Positions 30,099 to 36,987 of a DNA stretch of 37,318 bases are shown piece after piece (within the stretch, counting starts at the first letter, position 1; each line of letters begins with the position of its first letter). The position numbers were made by a program, and so were the translations under genes. The DNA is from Rariglobus sp. Its GTDB lineage: Bacteria > Verrucomicrobiota > Verrucomicrobiia > Opitutales > Opitutaceae. The notes beneath the pieces are model-generated. The model did not search any database. It was not told where the DNA came from and worked only from the letters and a program-made list of their open reading frames with translations. Location of the stretch: NCBI GenBank assembly GCA_029266495.1, contig JAQSWS010000034.1, forward strand, positions 1 to 37,318, written 5' to 3'.

Positions 30099-30497
30099 AT
30101 GGCTCGTCGCGTGTCCTCGTCCTCCGAACTCGACCCGCTGCCGGCGTATCCACGCATCGAACTTCACGACCTCCACCGCATCGCCGAATGGCAGGATGAG
30201 ATCACCTGGGAACCCTTCGGCGAAGGCGTGGAAATCCACCGCCTCTACGGCGACGGGGTCGCCGGCGCCACCGCCGCGCTCATTCGCTTTATCACCGCCG
30301 GCAAGGTCCGCCTGCACGAACACGCCGGTTTCGAGCACATCCTTGTGCTCACCGGATCGCAGTCCGACCAAAACGGAGTCACCCCCGCCGGATCCCTCGT
30401 GATCAACCCGCCCGGCACCCGCCACAGCATCGTCAGCGAATCCGGCTGCATCGTCCTCGCGATCTACGAAAAGCCCGTCGTCTTCCTTCCCGCCTGA
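30099..30497 (+). CDS. Small cupin-domain protein, ChrR-like
   Basis: A 132-residue protein with one cupin barrel. Cupin motif 1 appears as AGKVRLHEHAGFEHILVLTGSQSD (about 67-90), giving His-His-Glu candidates, and motif 2 as AGSLVINPPGTRHSIVSESG (about 96-115) with a further His; a mononuclear metal site is therefore likely. ChrR-type cupins bind zinc and are found in anti-sigma factors and in stand-alone enzymes or sensors. It is cotranscribed with atzF (3 nt between stop and start) and is plausibly an accessory enzyme or sensor for ureide metabolism. Its exact role is unknown. Confidence 0.8.
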   Translation: MARRVSSSSELDPLPAYPRIELHDLHRIAEWQDEITWEPFGEGVEIHRLYGDGVAGATAALIRFITAGKVRLHEHAGFEHILVLTGSQSDQNGVTPAGSLVINPPGTRHSIVSESGCIVLAIYEKPVVFLPA

Positions 30498-30500
30498 GTC

Positions 30501-32336
30501 ATGCCCGACCACCTGATCGCCTCCACCCTCGCCCGCTGCGACGCCTACGAACCGCGCGATCCCGCCGTCTGGCTGCACCGCCTCTCGCCCTCCGAAATCC
30601 ACGCACACGCGGAACGCATCGCCTCCCTCGCTCCCGCCGCCGCCCCGCTCCGCGGCCTCGCCTTTGCCATCAAAGACAACATCGACCTCGCCGGCGCGCC
30701 CACCACCGCCGCGTGCCCCGACTTCGCCTACACCCCCGCCGAATCCGCCCATGTCGTCGCCCGCCTTCTCGCCGCCGGCGCCCTCCCCGTTGGCAAGACC
30801 AACCTCGACCAGTTCGCCACCGGCCTTGTCGGCACGCGCTCCCCGCACGGCGCCCCCCGCAACGTATTCAATTCCGACTACATCTCGGGCGGCTCCTCCA
30901 GCGGCTCGGCCGTGGCGGTGGCCGCCGGCCTCGTCGACTTCGCCCTCGGCACCGACACCGCCGGCTCCGGCCGCGTCCCCGCCGCGTTCAACCAGATCAT
31001 CGGCCTCAAGCCCACTCGCGGACGCCTCTCAACCCGCGGCGTCGTCCCTGCTTGTCGCAGCCTCGACTGCGTCTCGATCTTCACCCGCGACATCGCCACC
31101 GCCACCCGCGTCCTCGCCGTCGCCGAAGGCTACGACCCCGCCGACCCCTTTTCCCGCCCCAACCCATCTTGTCACTTAATAAGTGACAAATCCTCGTCCC
31201 GCCCCCCATCCCAAAGTAACCTATTGGGTTACTTTACCTCCGATCATCCGCGTCTCGGCGTTCCCCGTGCCGACCAACTCGAATGGTTCGGCAACACCGA
31301 GTCGCCCGCCCTTTTCGCCGCCGCGCTCGACCGCCTGCGCACCCTCGGAGCTGAAATCATCGAGGTGGACTTCGCTCCCTTTCTCGACGCCGCCCGCCTG
31401 CTCTACGAAGGCCCCTGGACTGCCGAACGCTACGCCGCCGTCGGCGACTTCATCGAACGCCACTCGCCACCCACCGCCTCCGCCGAAGCCGCTCTCGCCA
31501 CCGGTCTCGATCCCACCGTTTCAAAAATCATCCTCGGCGGACACGCCGCTTCCGCAGTCGACGCCTTCCGCGCCACCTATCGCCTGGCCGAACTCCGCCG
31601 TGCCGCCGACGCCGTCCTCGCCACCGTCGACGCCCTCGTGGCCCCCACCGCCGGCACGATCTACACCGTAGCCCAGATCGAAGCCGACCCCGTTCGCCTC
31701 AATTCGAATCTCGGCCGCTACAACAACTTCATGAACCTGCTCGATCTGTGCGGACTCACCGTGCCCGCCGGTCGTTACAGCTTCGGCCCCGGTTTCGGCA
31801 TCACCCTGATCGCCCCCGCCTGGCAAGACCACGCCCTCCTCACCCTCGGCGCCCGCTACCTCGGCGAAACACCCCCAGCCTCCGATCCTATTTGTCACTT
31901 AATAAGTGACAAACCTTTCGCCCCGCCCCCACCGCCCGCGGTCGTCGCCGAAATTACGCTCGCCGTCTGCGGAGCCCACCTGCGCGGGCAACCGCTTCAT
32001 CATCAGCTCACCACTCTGGGCGCACGCTTCGTCGCCGCCACTGTGACCGCGCCCGTCTACCGGCTTTACGCCCTCGCCAACACCACGCCGCCCAAACCCG
32101 GTCTTGTTCGCGCCGCTCCCGGTGAAGCCGGCGCGGCCATTGCCATTGAAACGTATTCACTGTCCCCCGACGCCTTCGGTCGGTTCACCGCGGCCGTTCC
32201 GCCTCCCCTCGCCATCGGAAATGTCGAACTGAACGACGGAACGTGGGTCAAAAGCTTCCTCTGTGAACCCCACGCGCTTCGCGGCGCGACCGACATCACC
32301 TCCTTTGGCGGCTGGACCGCCTGGCTGGGCGCCTGA
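30501..32336 (+). CDS. atzF: Allophanate hydrolase AtzF
   Basis: A 611-residue allophanate hydrolase: amidase-signature domain plus the C-terminal AtzF domain, which together turn allophanate into two ammonia and two CO2. The Ser-cisSer-Lys triad is Lys58 (FAIKDNID), Ser132 (SGGSSSGSAVAV) and Ser156 (TDTAGSGRVPAA); spacings of 74 and 24 equal those of the characterised enzyme (Lys91, Ser165, Ser189). The C-terminal domain is complete (VCGAHLRGQPLHHQL, then SFGGWTAWLGA). This is where the carboxylase/deiminase arm and the biuret arm meet. Unusual: residues about 220-246 and 460-480 are in-frame insertions carrying perfect DNA palindromes, the first two encoding CHLISDK and NLLGYF text and the last CHLISDK again, at a loop and at the domain junction; neither should touch the active site. 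Confidence 0.95.
   Translation: MPDHLIASTLARCDAYEPRDPAVWLHRLSPSEIHAHAERIASLAPAAAPLRGLAFAIKDNIDLAGAPTTAACPDFAYTPAESAHVVARLLAAGALPVGKTNLDQFATGLVGTRSPHGAPRNVFNSDYISGGSSSGSAVAVAAGLVDFALGTDTAGSGRVPAAFNQIIGLKPTRGRLSTRGVVPACRSLDCVSIFTRDIATATRVLAVAEGYDPADPFSRPNPSCHLISDKSSSRPPSQSNLLGYFTSDHPRLGVPRADQLEWFGNTESPALFAAALDRLRTLGAEIIEVDFAPFLDAARLLYEGPWTAERYAAVGDFIERHSPPTASAEAALATGLDPTVSKIILGGHAASAVDAFRATYRLAELRRAADAVLATVDALVAPTAGTIYTVAQIEADPVRLNSNLGRYNNFMNLLDLCGLTVPAGRYSFGPGFGITLIAPAWQDHALLTLGARYLGETPPASDPICHLISDKPFAPPPPPAVVAEITLAVCGAHLRGQPLHHQLTTLGARFVAATVTAPVYRLYALANTTPPKPGLVRAAPGEAGAAIAIETYSLSPDAFGRFTAAVPPPLAIGNVELNDGTWVKSFLCEPHALRGATDITSFGGWTAWLGA
31169..31189. repeat. In-frame palindrome A in atzF
   Basis: TTGTCACTTA-A-TAAGTGACAA, perfect 10-bp arms around one A. 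It encodes CHLISDK at residues 223-230. The same sequence recurs at 31891 and 35001. Confidence 0.9.
31213..31235. repeat. In-frame palindrome B in atzF
   Basis: AAAGTAACC-TATTG-GGTTACTTT, perfect 9-bp arms around five bases, 23 nt after palindrome A. It encodes part of SNLLGYFT and differs in sequence from A, so it is a second palindrome type nested in the same insertion. Confidence 0.85.
31891..31913. repeat. In-frame palindrome C in atzF
   Basis: TTTGTCACTTA-A-TAAGTGACAAA, 11-bp arms, identical in core to palindrome A and in full to the intergenic copy at 35001. It encodes CHLISDK again at about residues 464-471, at the junction between the amidase and C-terminal domains. Confidence 0.9.
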
Positions 32337-32578
32337 GTTTCCCTCAGTCGACGTCGCGGGAATTCCGCGCCCGAAATCCCGGGCGTTCTCATGCAGGCTG
32401 CACGAACAGCTGGAAAACCGTCGCGCATTTTGCATGAAGGCGGCATCCGTAAACCGCCTGATCCCGGTTTTTATTAACCTGATCTCTAGTAAGTTACCCG
32501 ATACCCAATCCGCATGGCATGCGCCAAGGTAAGAGAGTCCCGTTCGATTCAACTCCAACCCTCAACGGAACCACGCTC

Positions 32579-33310
32579 ATGCCTCACACAATCTCCCACC
32601 CTTCGACCCGCCACATCACCCCCGCCAAACCCGAATCCGCCGCCGAGGCCGCTTACGACACCACCCTCGTCGCCCGCTTCAATGCCGGCGACGAAACCGC
32701 CTTCGTCGAGATCATGCAGCGCTATCACAACCGCCTGTTCAGTCTCGCTCATAACCTCCTCCGTAACTCCGCCGACGCCGAGGAAATCGTCCAGGACGCC
32801 TTCATCCGCGCCCATCGCGGCCTCGCCCACTTCCGCGGCGACTCCTCCTTGGCCACCTGGCTTTACCGCATCGCGCTCAACCTCTCGCGCAACCGCTACT
32901 GGTATTTCTTCCGCCGCCGCCGCCAGGATTCCCTGTCGCTCGAACGCCCGCTGTCCGACGAATCCGACGCCACGTTCTCCGATCTCATCGCCGCCGACGA
33001 CGCCGATCCCGCTCATGAAACCACGACCAACGAGTTCGTCTCCTTGATCGCCCTGTGCATGGACAAACTCGACGCCTCGCACCGTGAGATCCTCACCATG
33101 CGCAACGTCCTCGATCTTCCCTATGAGGACATCTCAAAGGCCCTTCGTATCAACGTGGGCACCGTCAAGAGCCGCATCGCCCGCGCCCGTGAAAACCTCC
33201 GCAAGCTCCTCGCCGAATGCGCCCCCGAGTTCGGTCCCGAATCCGCGCCATCCGACTTCTTCGAAAGCTCCCGCGACGCCCACGGCCGCCACGCCATCGC
33301 CTGCGCGTGA
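32579..33310 (+). CDS. RNA polymerase ECF-type sigma factor (RpoE-like)
   Basis: A 243-residue sigma-70-family protein with only regions 2 and 4. Region 2: TTLVARFNAGDETAFVEIMQ, RNSADAEEIVQDAFIRAH and DSSLATWLYRIALNLSRNRYW, the -10-binding segment. Region 4: LDASHREILTMRNVLDLPYEDISKALRINVGTVKSRIARARENLRK, the -35-binding helix-turn-helix. The start is either ATG 32579 (used here) or in-frame ATG 32519. It follows atzF by 242 nt, in which a small GC hairpin (near 32373-32390) may end the upstream operon, and it is followed by a strong terminator. No anti-sigma gene is adjacent; the regulon is unknown. Confidence 0.9.
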   Translation: MPHTISHPSTRHITPAKPESAAEAAYDTTLVARFNAGDETAFVEIMQRYHNRLFSLAHNLLRNSADAEEIVQDAFIRAHRGLAHFRGDSSLATWLYRIALNLSRNRYWYFFRRRRQDSLSLERPLSDESDATFSDLIAADDADPAHETTTNEFVSLIALCMDKLDASHREILTMRNVLDLPYEDISKALRINVGTVKSRIARARENLRKLLAECAPEFGPESAPSDFFESSRDAHGRHAIACA

Positions 33311-33331
33311 TCGCCATGGATCGTCTTGTGG

Positions 33332-33351
33332 CCCTGAGCGTGAGCTCAGGG
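33332..33351. repeat. GNRA-type hairpin repeat, copy 1
   Basis: CCCTGAGC-GTGA-GCTCAGGG, 8-bp arms with a GTGA tetraloop, 21 nt after the sigma-factor stop codon. The same hairpin with GTGG before it occurs at 37023. Confidence 0.8.
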
Positions 33352-33490
33352 TTTGACGACCGATCAATTCAGCGATCCTCAATCCACCCCTCGACCCGGC
33401 GTTATTGATCGCGGTTCAGATTCGCGACACGCCTTTCTCCCTCTATCTCAGGTCAGGATGATTTCTTGTGTAGTTCTGTGTAGTGCAAGG

Positions 33491-33524
33491 CCCGGCCGGA
33501 TCACCCCTGATCCAGCCGGGTTTT
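33491..33524 (+). terminator. Intrinsic terminator after the ECF sigma gene
   Basis: CCCGGC-C-GGATCA (33491-33503) pairs with TGATCC-A-GCCGGG (33508-33520) around a four-base loop, followed by TTTT (33521-33524). It is a long, stable stem with one internal mismatch and a short T run. Confidence 0.8.
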
Positions 33525-33570
33525 CACACAGGGACTATCACACCCCACTTGGTCGATAGCCCCAATTGAT

Positions 33571-34857
33571 TTAGTCGAGCCCGAAGGCCCGTCTGAGCTC
33601 GGTGAGCGCCTCGTCCGGCATGGGGACGAGCGGCCCAAGCGGCCGACTCAACAACAACGCCTCCGCGGTCGCCTCCAGCACTTCCAGCCGGTCAAACGCC
33701 TCGAGCAACGTGCGCCCTACAATCAACGCACCTTCGTTCTCGATCAACAGCACGGGGCACTTTTTCACCGACATGCGCGCGGCCAGCACCTCCGCATCGT
33801 TCACAATGCACGCGAAGGGCACCTTGGGCGCATCGCCGAGCACAAGGTAGCTCTCGGGAATCGTCCGCGTGCAGAACTCTGCGTCCGCCATGCAAAACGC
33901 GCTCGCGTGCATCGGCTGTGCATTGATCACCACGCCCACCGCCGGATTCGCCGCGTAAATCAGCGCATGCAACCGGGCCGTGCGACTTGCACGCTTGCCC
34001 GCTTCACACGCCCCGCGCGTCGCGCGCACCAACCCCTCCGGCCGCAAATCCAACCGGTCGCGGCGCCTCGGCGTGATCACAAACTGCTTCTCATCAAGCC
34101 TCGCCGAAATTGAACCCGCCGTGCTGATCATCAACCGCTGCCGATACGACCGATGCGCGAACTCGCACACCTGCGTCCGCAACTCCTTCTCCCGGTTGCC
34201 TGGCGCCGCCGGCTCCATCGTCGCATAGTCGGGCACCGCCTGCCCCGTCAGCACGCCCGCCGGCAACAAGCGCAACTCCCCCAATGAGGATGCCTTGATC
34301 ACCGTCTGAGCAACGAACTCCAGCGTCTCGAAACGCTGGAACGCCTCCGCCAGATCGCGACCACCGATGACCACCCCATGGTTCTCCAACATCACGCAAT
34401 CCGCACCGGCTGCGAACGCCTCGGCAATCTTGTCGCCCAATTCCTGACTGCCCGGACACGCATACGACGCATAGGCGATTTTCCCGCACAACGCGTGCGC
34501 ATGTGTCTGCACCCGCGTTTCCGGCAACCGTCGCACGATGCTGAAAGCCACCAGCGCCCCCGGATGCGCGTGCACGATCGCCTTGATGTCCGGGCGTCGT
34601 TTATAAATTTCGCGATGGAACGGAAACTCCGACGACGGCGGATGCAGTCCCTCGCGCGTTCCGTCGGCCTTCACGCGCACGACATCCGTCGGATGCAACG
34701 TGCCTTTGTCGACCCGCGACGGCGTGATCCAGATGCTCCCGTCGGGATCGAGAATCGACAGGTTTCCCCCTGACGTCGTCGTCATGTGGTAGCGGTAGAT
34801 GCGATCCATCGTGGCGACGAGTTCGTCACGCGGATGCAGCCAGGAGGAGGTGTCCAT
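33571..34857 (-). CDS. Tandem class II aldolase/adducin-domain protein, second domain degenerate
   Basis: A 428-residue fusion of two class II aldolase domains (L-fuculose-phosphate-aldolase-like fold, zinc enzymes cleaving or epimerising sugar phosphates). The N-terminal domain is intact: TTTSGGNLSI, ITPSRVDKGTL, SSEFPFHREIYKRRPD (Glu), the zinc pair in VHAHPGALVA and third His in LENHGVVIGG. The C-terminal domain (about 225-428) repeats the order (ISTAGSISAR, VITPRRRDRLDL, ARLHALIYAANPA) but its His pair is INAQP and the third His is replaced in IENEGALIVG, so the metal site is lost. ATG 34857 (MDTSSWLHPRDE) is chosen over the open upstream frame because the domain starts there. Substrate unknown. 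It is divergent from recQ. Confidence 0.85.
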   Translation of the reverse strand: MDTSSWLHPRDELVATMDRIYRYHMTTTSGGNLSILDPDGSIWITPSRVDKGTLHPTDVVRVKADGTREGLHPPSSEFPFHREIYKRRPDIKAIVHAHPGALVAFSIVRRLPETRVQTHAHALCGKIAYASYACPGSQELGDKIAEAFAAGADCVMLENHGVVIGGRDLAEAFQRFETLEFVAQTVIKASSLGELRLLPAGVLTGQAVPDYATMEPAAPGNREKELRTQVCEFAHRSYRQRLMISTAGSISARLDEKQFVITPRRRDRLDLRPEGLVRATRGACEAGKRASRTARLHALIYAANPAVGVVINAQPMHASAFCMADAEFCTRTIPESYLVLGDAPKVPFACIVNDAEVLAARMSVKKCPVLLIENEGALIVGRTLLEAFDRLEVLEATAEALLLSRPLGPLVPMPDEALTELRRAFGLD

Positions 34858-35000
34858 GGGCGCATCCGACGCCCGACGCGCCCCGTAAGTCAAAGCCTTG
34901 CCAACCCATGCGCAGCCTTCGCCAAAAAACGCCCGATTCCGCCCCTTCACCCCACCCCAACCGCGTCCCCCCATCCAGTGACCACTTTCCCCAAACCCAA

Positions 35001-35023
35001 TTTGTCACTTAATAAGTGACAAA
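35001..35023. repeat. Intergenic copy of the atzF palindrome
   Basis: TTTGTCACTTA-A-TAAGTGACAAA, identical to the copy at 31891, here between the divergent aldolase and recQ genes about 78 nt before the recQ start. Shows that the element is dispersed and not part of the enzyme family. Confidence 0.9.
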
Positions 35024-35100
35024 CCTGCCGCGAGCCTTCGTCTCCAGTTTTTCCTTCGAACCTCAGTCTGCGCAGTCCGCTTTGCTGGCGGCTCCTTTTC

Positions 35101-36987
35101 ATGAGATTCACCGTTGAGGCGCCTCAACGGCGCCCCAATCTCGGCGTCCATTTTCCCGTGCCCGAACTCCTTCACACGCTTCACACCACCTTCGGCTATC
35201 CCGAGTTCCGCCCGCTCCAACGCGACATCATCGAAACGTCCCTCGCCGGCCGCGACGTCTTCGCCCTGCTGCCCACCGGCGGCGGCAAATCCCTCTGCTT
35301 CCAAATCCCCGCCCTCCACCGCACCGGCCTCACCATCGTGGTCTCACCGCTCATCGCGTTGATGAAGGACCAGGTCGATCAGCTTCAGGCCGCCGGTGTC
35401 GCCGCAACCTATCTCAATTCCACGCTCACCTCCGCCGATGCCCGCTCCCGCCTCGCCGGCCTGCATCGCAACGAATGGCGGCTCCTCTATGTCGCCCCCG
35501 AGCGCCTCATGCTCGATAATTGGCAGGAAAACCTCAAAGCCTGGAACGTTGCCGCCATCGCCATCGACGAGGCCCACTGCGTCTCCGAATGGGGGCATGA
35601 TTTCCGCCCCGAATACCGCCAGATCTCCAAGCTCCGCGAACTCCTCCCCGACGTGCCCGTGATGGCGCTCACCGCCACCGCCACCGAGCGCGTGCGCGTT
35701 GACATCATCAAGCACCTCAAGCTCCGCAACCCCTCCGTCTTCGTCGCGTCCTTCAACCGCCCCAACCTCACCTACAAGGTCACGCCCAAGGAAAAACCTA
35801 CCGACCAGATCCTCGCGTGGGTGAAAAAACGCGAAGACGAGAGCGGCATCGTTTACTGCGCCAGCCGCGCCGCCACCGAGCGCGTCGCCGAGGCCCTCGC
35901 CGGCAAAGGCTACAGCGCCCGCCCCTACCACGCCGGCCTTCCCGCCGACGAACGCGCCCGCAACCAGGAGCTGTTTCTCCGCGATGAGGTCCGCATCATG
36001 TGCGCGACCATCGCCTTCGGCATGGGTATCAACAAGCCGAACGTCCGCTGGGTCATCCATTACGATCTCCCCAAAAACATCGAGGGATACTACCAGGAAA
36101 CCGGCCGTGCCGGTCGTGACGGATTGCCCGGCGATTGCCTTCTGCTCTTCTCCGCCGGCGACGCCGCCAAGCAGACCCACTTCATCGACGAGATGACCAA
36201 CGACCAGGAGCAACAGGTCGCCCGCAACCAGCTCCGCCAGATCATGCGCTACGCCGAAGGCGCCAGTTGCCGCCGCGGCGAACTGCTCGCCTATTTCGGC
36301 GAGAAATTCCCACTCGATAACTGCGCCGCCTGCGACAACTGCAACGAACCCCGCGACACCTACGACGGCACCATCCAGGCGCAAAAATTCCTCTCCTGCG
36401 TCTATCGCATCAACGCCGCCAGCCGCTTCGGCGTCGGCATCAACCACGTGTGCGAAGTTCTCACCGGTGCCGACACCGACAAAATCCGTCGCTGGGAGCA
36501 CGATCGTCTCTCCACCTACGGCATCGGCAAGGACCTCTCCCGCCCCGCCTGGGCCGCCATCGGTCGCGACCTGCTGCGCCTCGGCTTTCTCGCGCAAAGC
36601 GAGGGCGAGTTCCCCACCCTCCAACTCACCACCGAGGGACTCGACGCGCTCAAAACCCGCCGCCCCATCACGCTCACCAAGCCGATGGACCTGCCCAAGG
36701 TCCGCAAGGTCGTGCGCCGCGAAGGCGACATCGAATGCGACGAGATCCTCTTCAACCGCCTGCGCGAGCTGCGCAAAAGGCTCGCCGACGAGCGCAAGGT
36801 TCCCGCCTACGTCATCTTCGGCGACGCCACGCTCCGCCAGATGGCCCGTGAATATCCGCAGGGCGATGACGCCATGGCCAACATCTTCGGCATGGGTGCC
36901 AAGAAGCGCGCCGAGTTCAGCGAGATCTTTGCGCGCGAAATCGCCTCCTACCTCCAGGACAACTCGCGCATGACGTTCAACGACTGA
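35101..36987 (+). CDS. recQ: ATP-dependent DNA helicase RecQ
   Basis: A 628-residue RecQ 3'-5' helicase for recombination and replication-fork repair. Seen in order: motif 0 TFGYPEFRPLQRDII, Walker A LLPTGGGKSLCF (near 56-67), DEAH box IDEAHCVSEWGHDFRPEY with the RecQ aromatic loop, ALTATATERV, FNRPNL, IVYCASRAATERVAEAL, ATIAFGMGINKPNVR and YYQETGRAGRDGLPG, then the RQC zinc ligands C-x-RRGELLAYFGE...CAACDNC (about 389-416), winged helix, and an HRDC domain near 530-610. The length is typical. ATG 35101 has no good ribosome-binding site but no later Met precedes motif 0. Confidence 0.97.
   Translation: MRFTVEAPQRRPNLGVHFPVPELLHTLHTTFGYPEFRPLQRDIIETSLAGRDVFALLPTGGGKSLCFQIPALHRTGLTIVVSPLIALMKDQVDQLQAAGVAATYLNSTLTSADARSRLAGLHRNEWRLLYVAPERLMLDNWQENLKAWNVAAIAIDEAHCVSEWGHDFRPEYRQISKLRELLPDVPVMALTATATERVRVDIIKHLKLRNPSVFVASFNRPNLTYKVTPKEKPTDQILAWVKKREDESGIVYCASRAATERVAEALAGKGYSARPYHAGLPADERARNQELFLRDEVRIMCATIAFGMGINKPNVRWVIHYDLPKNIEGYYQETGRAGRDGLPGDCLLLFSAGDAAKQTHFIDEMTNDQEQQVARNQLRQIMRYAEGASCRRGELLAYFGEKFPLDNCAACDNCNEPRDTYDGTIQAQKFLSCVYRINAASRFGVGINHVCEVLTGADTDKIRRWEHDRLSTYGIGKDLSRPAWAAIGRDLLRLGFLAQSEGEFPTLQLTTEGLDALKTRRPITLTKPMDLPKVRKVVRREGDIECDEILFNRLRELRKRLADERKVPAYVIFGDATLRQMAREYPQGDDAMANIFGMGAKKRAEFSEIFAREIASYLQDNSRMTFND

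Follow-up and report, generated by a model that had tools for sequence, protein, structure and literature searches.

Three palindromes lie within the allophanate hydrolase gene atzF (30501..32336, plus strand; 611 aa, Amidase and AH_C domains) of the window, by which we mean the whole 37,318-nt stretch of DNA analysed here, and the reading frame stays open across all three. What are these palindromes, how did they come to lie in an enzyme gene, and what keeps them symmetrical? They bear on the way REP-like repeats move through genomes, and on whether selection or simple copying accounts for their symmetry.

Palindrome 1 (31169..31189, plus strand; version GTCACTTAATAAGTGAC) reads TTGTCACTTAATAAGTGACAA and is a perfect odd palindrome, with the next outward pair, C31168/A31190, mismatched; its left flank (31154..31168, plus strand) carries a CCRAYCC-like motif (CCCAACCC). 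Palindrome 2 (31213..31235, minus strand; version GTAACCCAATAGGTTAC), with the sequence AAAGTAACCTATTGGGTTACTTT, has perfect arms of 9 bp and a single T/G pair next to the centre, and forms a doublet with palindrome 1 at a spacing of 45 bp. Palindrome 3 (31891..31913, plus strand) is perfect over the whole 23-mer, and a fourth copy of the full 23-mer (35001..35023, plus strand) sits between divergently called genes. The initial annotation had placed all of these correctly, including the identical intergenic element at 35001. Its description of three perfect palindromes holds for palindromes 1 and 3 and slightly overstates palindrome 2, and its statement that two of them are the same element was right as far as it went, having missed that palindrome 2 forms one family with them, its stem being compensated.

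At the protein level, palindromes 1 and 3 both encode CHLISDK (AtzF residues 224-230 and 465-471), as had been claimed, and palindrome 2 encodes SNLLGYF (residues 239-245). Site 1 is the loop after DPFSRP, and site 2, with palindrome 3, lies between the Pfam Amidase (residues 9-447) and AH_C (residues 485-609) domains. The AlphaFold model of AtzF had a mean pLDDT of 86.0 and fell below 50 at residues 104-109, 237-243 and 463-481, the last two stretches overlapping what palindromes 2 and 3 encode; the peptide of palindrome 1 falls in a model block with a mean pLDDT of 64, block means being 51-64 over residues 221-250. Compared with the solved structure 4gyr, site 1 was mostly gap, and at site 2 the linker of 4gyr is about as long but lacks the palindrome-encoded residues. 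The Pfam borders, the low pLDDT and the gap at site 1 bear out the earlier placement of the inserts in a loop and at a domain junction. The accompanying argument that the catalytic spacing is exactly preserved carries no evidential weight, because K58, S132/S133 and S156, which are invariant and which we take to be catalytic, all precede the two inserts.

The genome of the window (G000; 4.89 Mb, 172 contigs) was searched for further copies, with each pattern read backwards as the control. The 23-mer TTTGTCACTTAATAAGTGACAAA occurred in 35 exact copies versus 0 in the control; allowing up to 3 mismatches, a search that counts a palindromic place on both strands, gave 64 and 63 matches on the two strands (control, 0). 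The family pattern GTNACYNAATANGTNAC, which all three atzF palindromes fit, gave 95 copies (53 and 42; control, 0), comprising 48 copies of GTCACTTAATAAGTGAC, 19 of GTAACCCAATAGGTTAC, 14 of GTCACCTAATAGGTGAC and 14 others. The repeat unit is a near-perfect palindrome of 23-27 bp, often with a CCRAYCC-like motif before it; in raw counts from a loose match without background, this motif lay to the left of the core in 61/95 copies and on both sides in 22/95. A total of 26/95 copies lie inside ORFs and 69/95 between called genes, so that the predicted dispersed repeat that tolerates coding positions was recovered genome-wide, and the family, with its many copies, corresponds to a REP in the broad sense (a palindromic dispersed repeat of 20-40 bp).

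The copies of the family differ in their stems while keeping their pairing. GTAACCCAATAGGTTAC aligns with GTCACTTAATAAGTGAC with mainly compensated differences, and the three main stem versions have both arms compensated, the GTNAC half-sites being fixed. Copies with matching arms form long hairpins (e.g. L006 and L008). When partners were dealt among copies of the same version, the mean arm extension with the own partner was 5.6 versus 3.4 with dealt partners for GTCACTT (n = 48) and 5.9 versus 3.4 for GTCACCT (n = 14); for GTAACCC (n = 19) it was 4.5 versus a permuted mean of 3.8, inside the permuted range (maximum 4.8). At one locus (L007:1524-1600), a GGTCATT tandem repeat begins right at the right arm of the palindrome.

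Among 120 genomes of the bacterial family, 56 matched the family pattern, 39 of these with at least 5 matches (hand tally), and the control gave single matches in 6/120. The version GTCACTTANTAAGTGAC occurred in 7/13 genomes of the genus (own included) and in 0/43 of the others in the set of 56. Of 387 genomes drawn from across the phylum, 37 matched; by hand tally these were 22/37 within the family (own included) and 15/350 outside it, the latter with 1 to 3 matches each that were mostly non-palindromic among the matches listed. The repeat thus occurs unevenly within a single bacterial family and does not exceed chance elsewhere. This family is likely Opitutaceae, judging from the named atzF relatives above 59% identity (Verrucomicrobia, Opitutus sp. 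and Opitutaceae MAGs).

Copies in conserved enzymes of several related species make the gain, loss and rewriting of palindromes readable at orthologous codons, and we aligned atzF of the window with 14 orthologues, of which 10 belong to the genus, 3 to other genera in the family and 1 to a different family in the order. At site 1, family palindromes were present in the window, L060, L061, L062, L064, L065 and L066; L071 carried ATAACCCAATAGGTTAT inside a longer insert, and L063 and L067 possibly hold relics. No family palindrome was found there in L068, L069 or L070, the scan of L073 gave only a G+C-rich inverted repeat, and L072 does not reach the site. Relative to the 35-residue segment found in 8 of the 9 covering genus orthologues (L060-L067), the window has 15 additional residues because of an added 45-nt unit with palindrome 2; its site 1 therefore combines an older insert with a single further unit. 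At site 2, the palindrome was present in the window, L060, L061, L062 and L066 (5 of the 10 covering genus sequences) and absent from L063, L064, L065, L067, L072 and the four sequences outside the genus. The four orthologues outside the genus were without the residues of the inserts, in agreement with the expectation that these segments are lineage-specific; together with the many further copies in the genome, this means that neither outcome named beforehand as refuting the initial reading was seen.

Where the palindromes were shared, they had been rewritten on both arms. Counted pairwise, and hence phylogenetically non-independent, paired positions had changed on both arms in 34 cases and on a single arm in 21 at site 1 (7 sequences), with 12 and 7 such cases at site 2 (5 sequences). 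A 3Beta_HSD/Epimerase-family gene carries a 66-bp doublet at the same place in G000 and G006, flank homology being judged by eye, and both units are GTCACCTAATAGGTGAC in G000 and GTCACTTATTAAGTGAC in G006. These results demonstrate that the mirror symmetry persists across related species even though both arms have changed their letters.

The 26 intragenic copies of G000 lie within 20 ORFs called by a simple codon-score gene caller; a stricter call with coding signal required on both sides left 16/95, and one copy of the 26 (L024) begins at ORF residue 7 and may precede the true start. Because about 88% of the fetched DNA was called coding, intragenic copies (26/95) are under-represented. The 69 intergenic copies lie between tandem (47), convergent (15) and divergent (7) gene pairs. 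All 20 carrier ORFs had Pfam matches at E up to 0.001; they include MnmA, an M32 carboxypeptidase, O6-methylguanine-DNA methyltransferase, a formyl transferase, a class-V aminotransferase, a DEAD_2 helicase, an HhH-GPD protein and the allophanate hydrolase. A single codon phase was used by 25/26 intragenic copies, the exception being in L100, and on direct reading this phase, xGT NAC YYA ATA RGT NAC, is stop-free in the three versions on either strand. The alignment of homologues has a gap at the insert in MnmA and partly so in M32, whereas in L113 the insert region aligned to homologues without a clear gap, so that this alignment gives no evidence of a new insertion there. Several carriers (L016, L113 and L044) resemble DNA repair genes (HhH-GPD, O6-methylguanine-DNA methyltransferase and DEAD_2 helicase), a kind of carrier also reported for intragenic REPs of other species. 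DEAD_2 helicase-like relatives from two genera (L044 in G000, L180 in G146 and L271 in G072) all carry palindromes, those of G146 and G072 as 54-bp doublets with differing spacers.

The spacing of neighbouring copies was examined next to their sequence. G000 has 9 close pairs, as is usual for the doublets of REPs. Ten genomes, without G078, gave 74 pairs at up to 100 bp among the matches listed, and their spacings, read by eye, fell into classes of 44-47 bp (11), 53-59 bp (35), 65-69 bp (20), 75-78 bp (4), 87-91 bp (3) and 99 bp (1), with no pair at 48-52, 60-64 or 70-74 bp; pairs beyond 100 bp were dropped from this pooled test. The best-fitting period was 10.9, with 10.5 almost equal. Some doublets within a genome may be mutual copies, and comparisons among species are non-independent. 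In the loci covered, 35 doublets, with those of G078 kept, fell into 26 spacer clusters (seven doublets being merged into one by shared 8-mers); taking one spacing for each cluster gave P = 5e-5 against the smoothed null, the best period here coinciding with the limit of the scan (11.5). The null was the observed spacings smoothed with an sd of 8 bp for the pooled and cluster tests, and uniform for the following test. Six genomes not used before gave ten spacings among the matches listed (45, 53, 66, 79, 56, 57, 48, 77, 59 and 45 bp), which fitted the earlier phase (P = 0.02), 48 and 79 being slightly outside the earlier classes. Leaving out one genome at a time gave P values between <1e-4 and 0.03 in five genomes and of 0.10-0.15 in G121, and in G121 alone the phase was not significant.

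The steps of about 10.5-11 bp in this ladder (about 45/56/66/76 bp) thus also appear with differing spacer sequences, and the classes are common to inverted and same-orientation pairs; by the orientation of the centre base, 9/25 pairs in G067 have the same orientation. In G078, 13 pairs at 42-44 bp among the matches listed lay some 3 bp away from the common phase; these pairs were omitted from the pooled and new-genome tests. Nearly all listed copies of that genome (L291-L318) are inverted doublets, several with similar spacers, as if a doublet had been amplified. Steps of about one helical turn are most simply explained by two duplex-bound protein dimers sitting on one face of the helix. The phased spacing suggests a protein that recognises the palindrome in its double-stranded form, and the ladder is a direct hint of such a protein.

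We consider it probable that the palindromes are a REP-like dispersed repeat of one family, tolerated as in-frame inserts, with a symmetry kept by a duplex-binding dimer and/or by conversion between the arms. A trans-acting factor would copy units into new positions, and copies landing in ORFs would persist only in frame and at flexible places, so that the encoded peptide would be tolerated, not selected. A dimeric protein that binds the duplex and/or arm-to-arm conversion by template switching may then maintain the symmetry, and the doublets would be phased because such a dimer binds duplex DNA. A more specific version, which we put forward tentatively, is that the mover or binder is a dimeric, duplex-reading protein other than Y1/RAYT, with pairs therefore held on one helix face and stems rewritten symmetrically in place even in genes. 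Against the REP-like reading stand the arm excess of GTAACCC, which does not leave the permuted range, the alignment of L113 without a clear gap, the off-phase G078, the non-significance of G121 alone, the possible copying among doublets within a genome, the non-independence of the species comparisons, and the failure to find a mover, a binder or any movement.

The mover generally proposed for REPs is a Y1/RAYT transposase. Y1_Tnp matches occurred in 107/120 genomes of the family and 11/13 of the genus, and the only one in G000 (C1:2859; L039:2740-3790, a 322-aa frame) had no palindrome in the surrounding 12-kb stretch examined. By eye, this gene is flanked by an inverted repeat of its own (GGGTCAGGGCGTTTTTTGTCA on the left and TGACAAAAAACGCCCCGACCC on the right), the outer part of which is unrelated to the palindromes. 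No palindrome, and hence no REPtron arrangement, was found in 56 Y1_Tnp loci of the genus and family (the best-scoring genes, L031 and L039 being one gene, with flanks of up to about 1.5 kb, shorter at contig ends). Genomes G029, G078 and G119 bear 17, 29 and 8 copies without a Y1 match, at a completeness of 97, 84 and 93%. By tally, a Y1 match was lacking in 4/56 palindrome-bearing versus 9/64 palindrome-free genomes of the family, and the presence of the palindrome does not follow that of Y1. A recurrent neighbour gene was likewise rejected as the mover: 350 distinct proteins near palindromes formed only small clusters, the largest of 8 resembling an ABC ATP-binding protein, and no transposase was recognised among the clusters listed. 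Neither the Y1 loci nor the neighbour-protein clusters yielded a mover or binder, and no movement was observed in the genomes compared.

These observations bear on the possibility that a RAYT (Y1 tyrosine transposase) mobilises the palindromes as REPs in the form of single-strand hairpins, the mechanism put forward for GTAG REPs, among them those of Opitutus terrae. The size, hairpin shape, doublets and in-frame copies all fit what is described for GTAG REPs in PMC3733652, and the Y1_Tnp genes found through most of the family could act in trans. However, no fixed tag accompanies the cores (at any one offset within 40 bases, at most 2/95 with GTAG and 4/95 with CGTC), the Y1 loci are devoid of palindromes, three genomes carry copies without a Y1 match, and phased spacing is a property of duplex DNA; we therefore regard RAYT movement as unlikely.

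Immobile sites bound by a regulator or nucleoid protein, and multiplied by selection, would account for the dyad symmetry, the fixed GTNAC half-sites and the phased doublets, but they would not be expected as lineage-specific copies within ORFs of unrelated enzymes, with so few between divergent genes (7/69) and with stems that differ among versions, which makes this reading improbable as well. A main role at the RNA level, with hairpins that end transcription or affect mRNA stability, appears very unlikely: single strands do fold well, the four window copies at -9.5 to -11.6 kcal/mol and two long-armed ones at -34 and -39.5 kcal/mol, yet more than a quarter of the copies (26/95) are within ORFs, the spacing is phased to the DNA helix, and Rfam gave no match up to E 0.1 in window positions 30300-35200. 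That the palindromes are products of chance or of the codon usage of the genes is refuted by the 95 copies against none in the control, the majority of them intergenic.

Compared with known systems, the REP-like family resembles the REPINs of Pseudomonas fluorescens, as these are described in Bertels and Rainey 2011 (PMC3116915), in its doublets of short palindromes, preferred spacings and less conserved spacers. The REPINs have commonest spacings of 71 and 110 bp and 93% inverted doublets in that account; the present family differs in its ladder, in the share of same-orientation pairs in G067 and in having no linked Y1 gene in the 56 loci. The likeness to the elements of Rickettsiales that had been proposed for the atzF palindromes holds as an analogy only: Rickettsia RPEs, likened here by their description in PMC3733652, are palindromic repeats in frame within ORFs, but they belong to another phylum, and RPE-1 is longer according to that paper. 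In the open-access literature we found no untagged family with the present core, no both-arm switching at orthologous codons and no phased spacing ladder. The closest precedent is given by the intragenic REPs of Opitutus terrae, where Di Nocera et al. 2013 (PMC3733652) describe, for this and other species, GTAG-tagged REPs that occur singly and as dimers, some wholly inside ORFs; in O. terrae the intragenic dimers or groups encode 20-30 residues, and copies in DNA repair genes are also described. Because in-frame REP-like inserts are thus already published for O. terrae, the kind of element is not new. Compared by its tag with the GTAG REPs of that account, the present family differs in lacking GTAG; it shares with them the nature of short palindromic dispersed repeats, the single and dimeric arrangement, the wholly intra-ORF copies and the carriers that resemble DNA repair genes.
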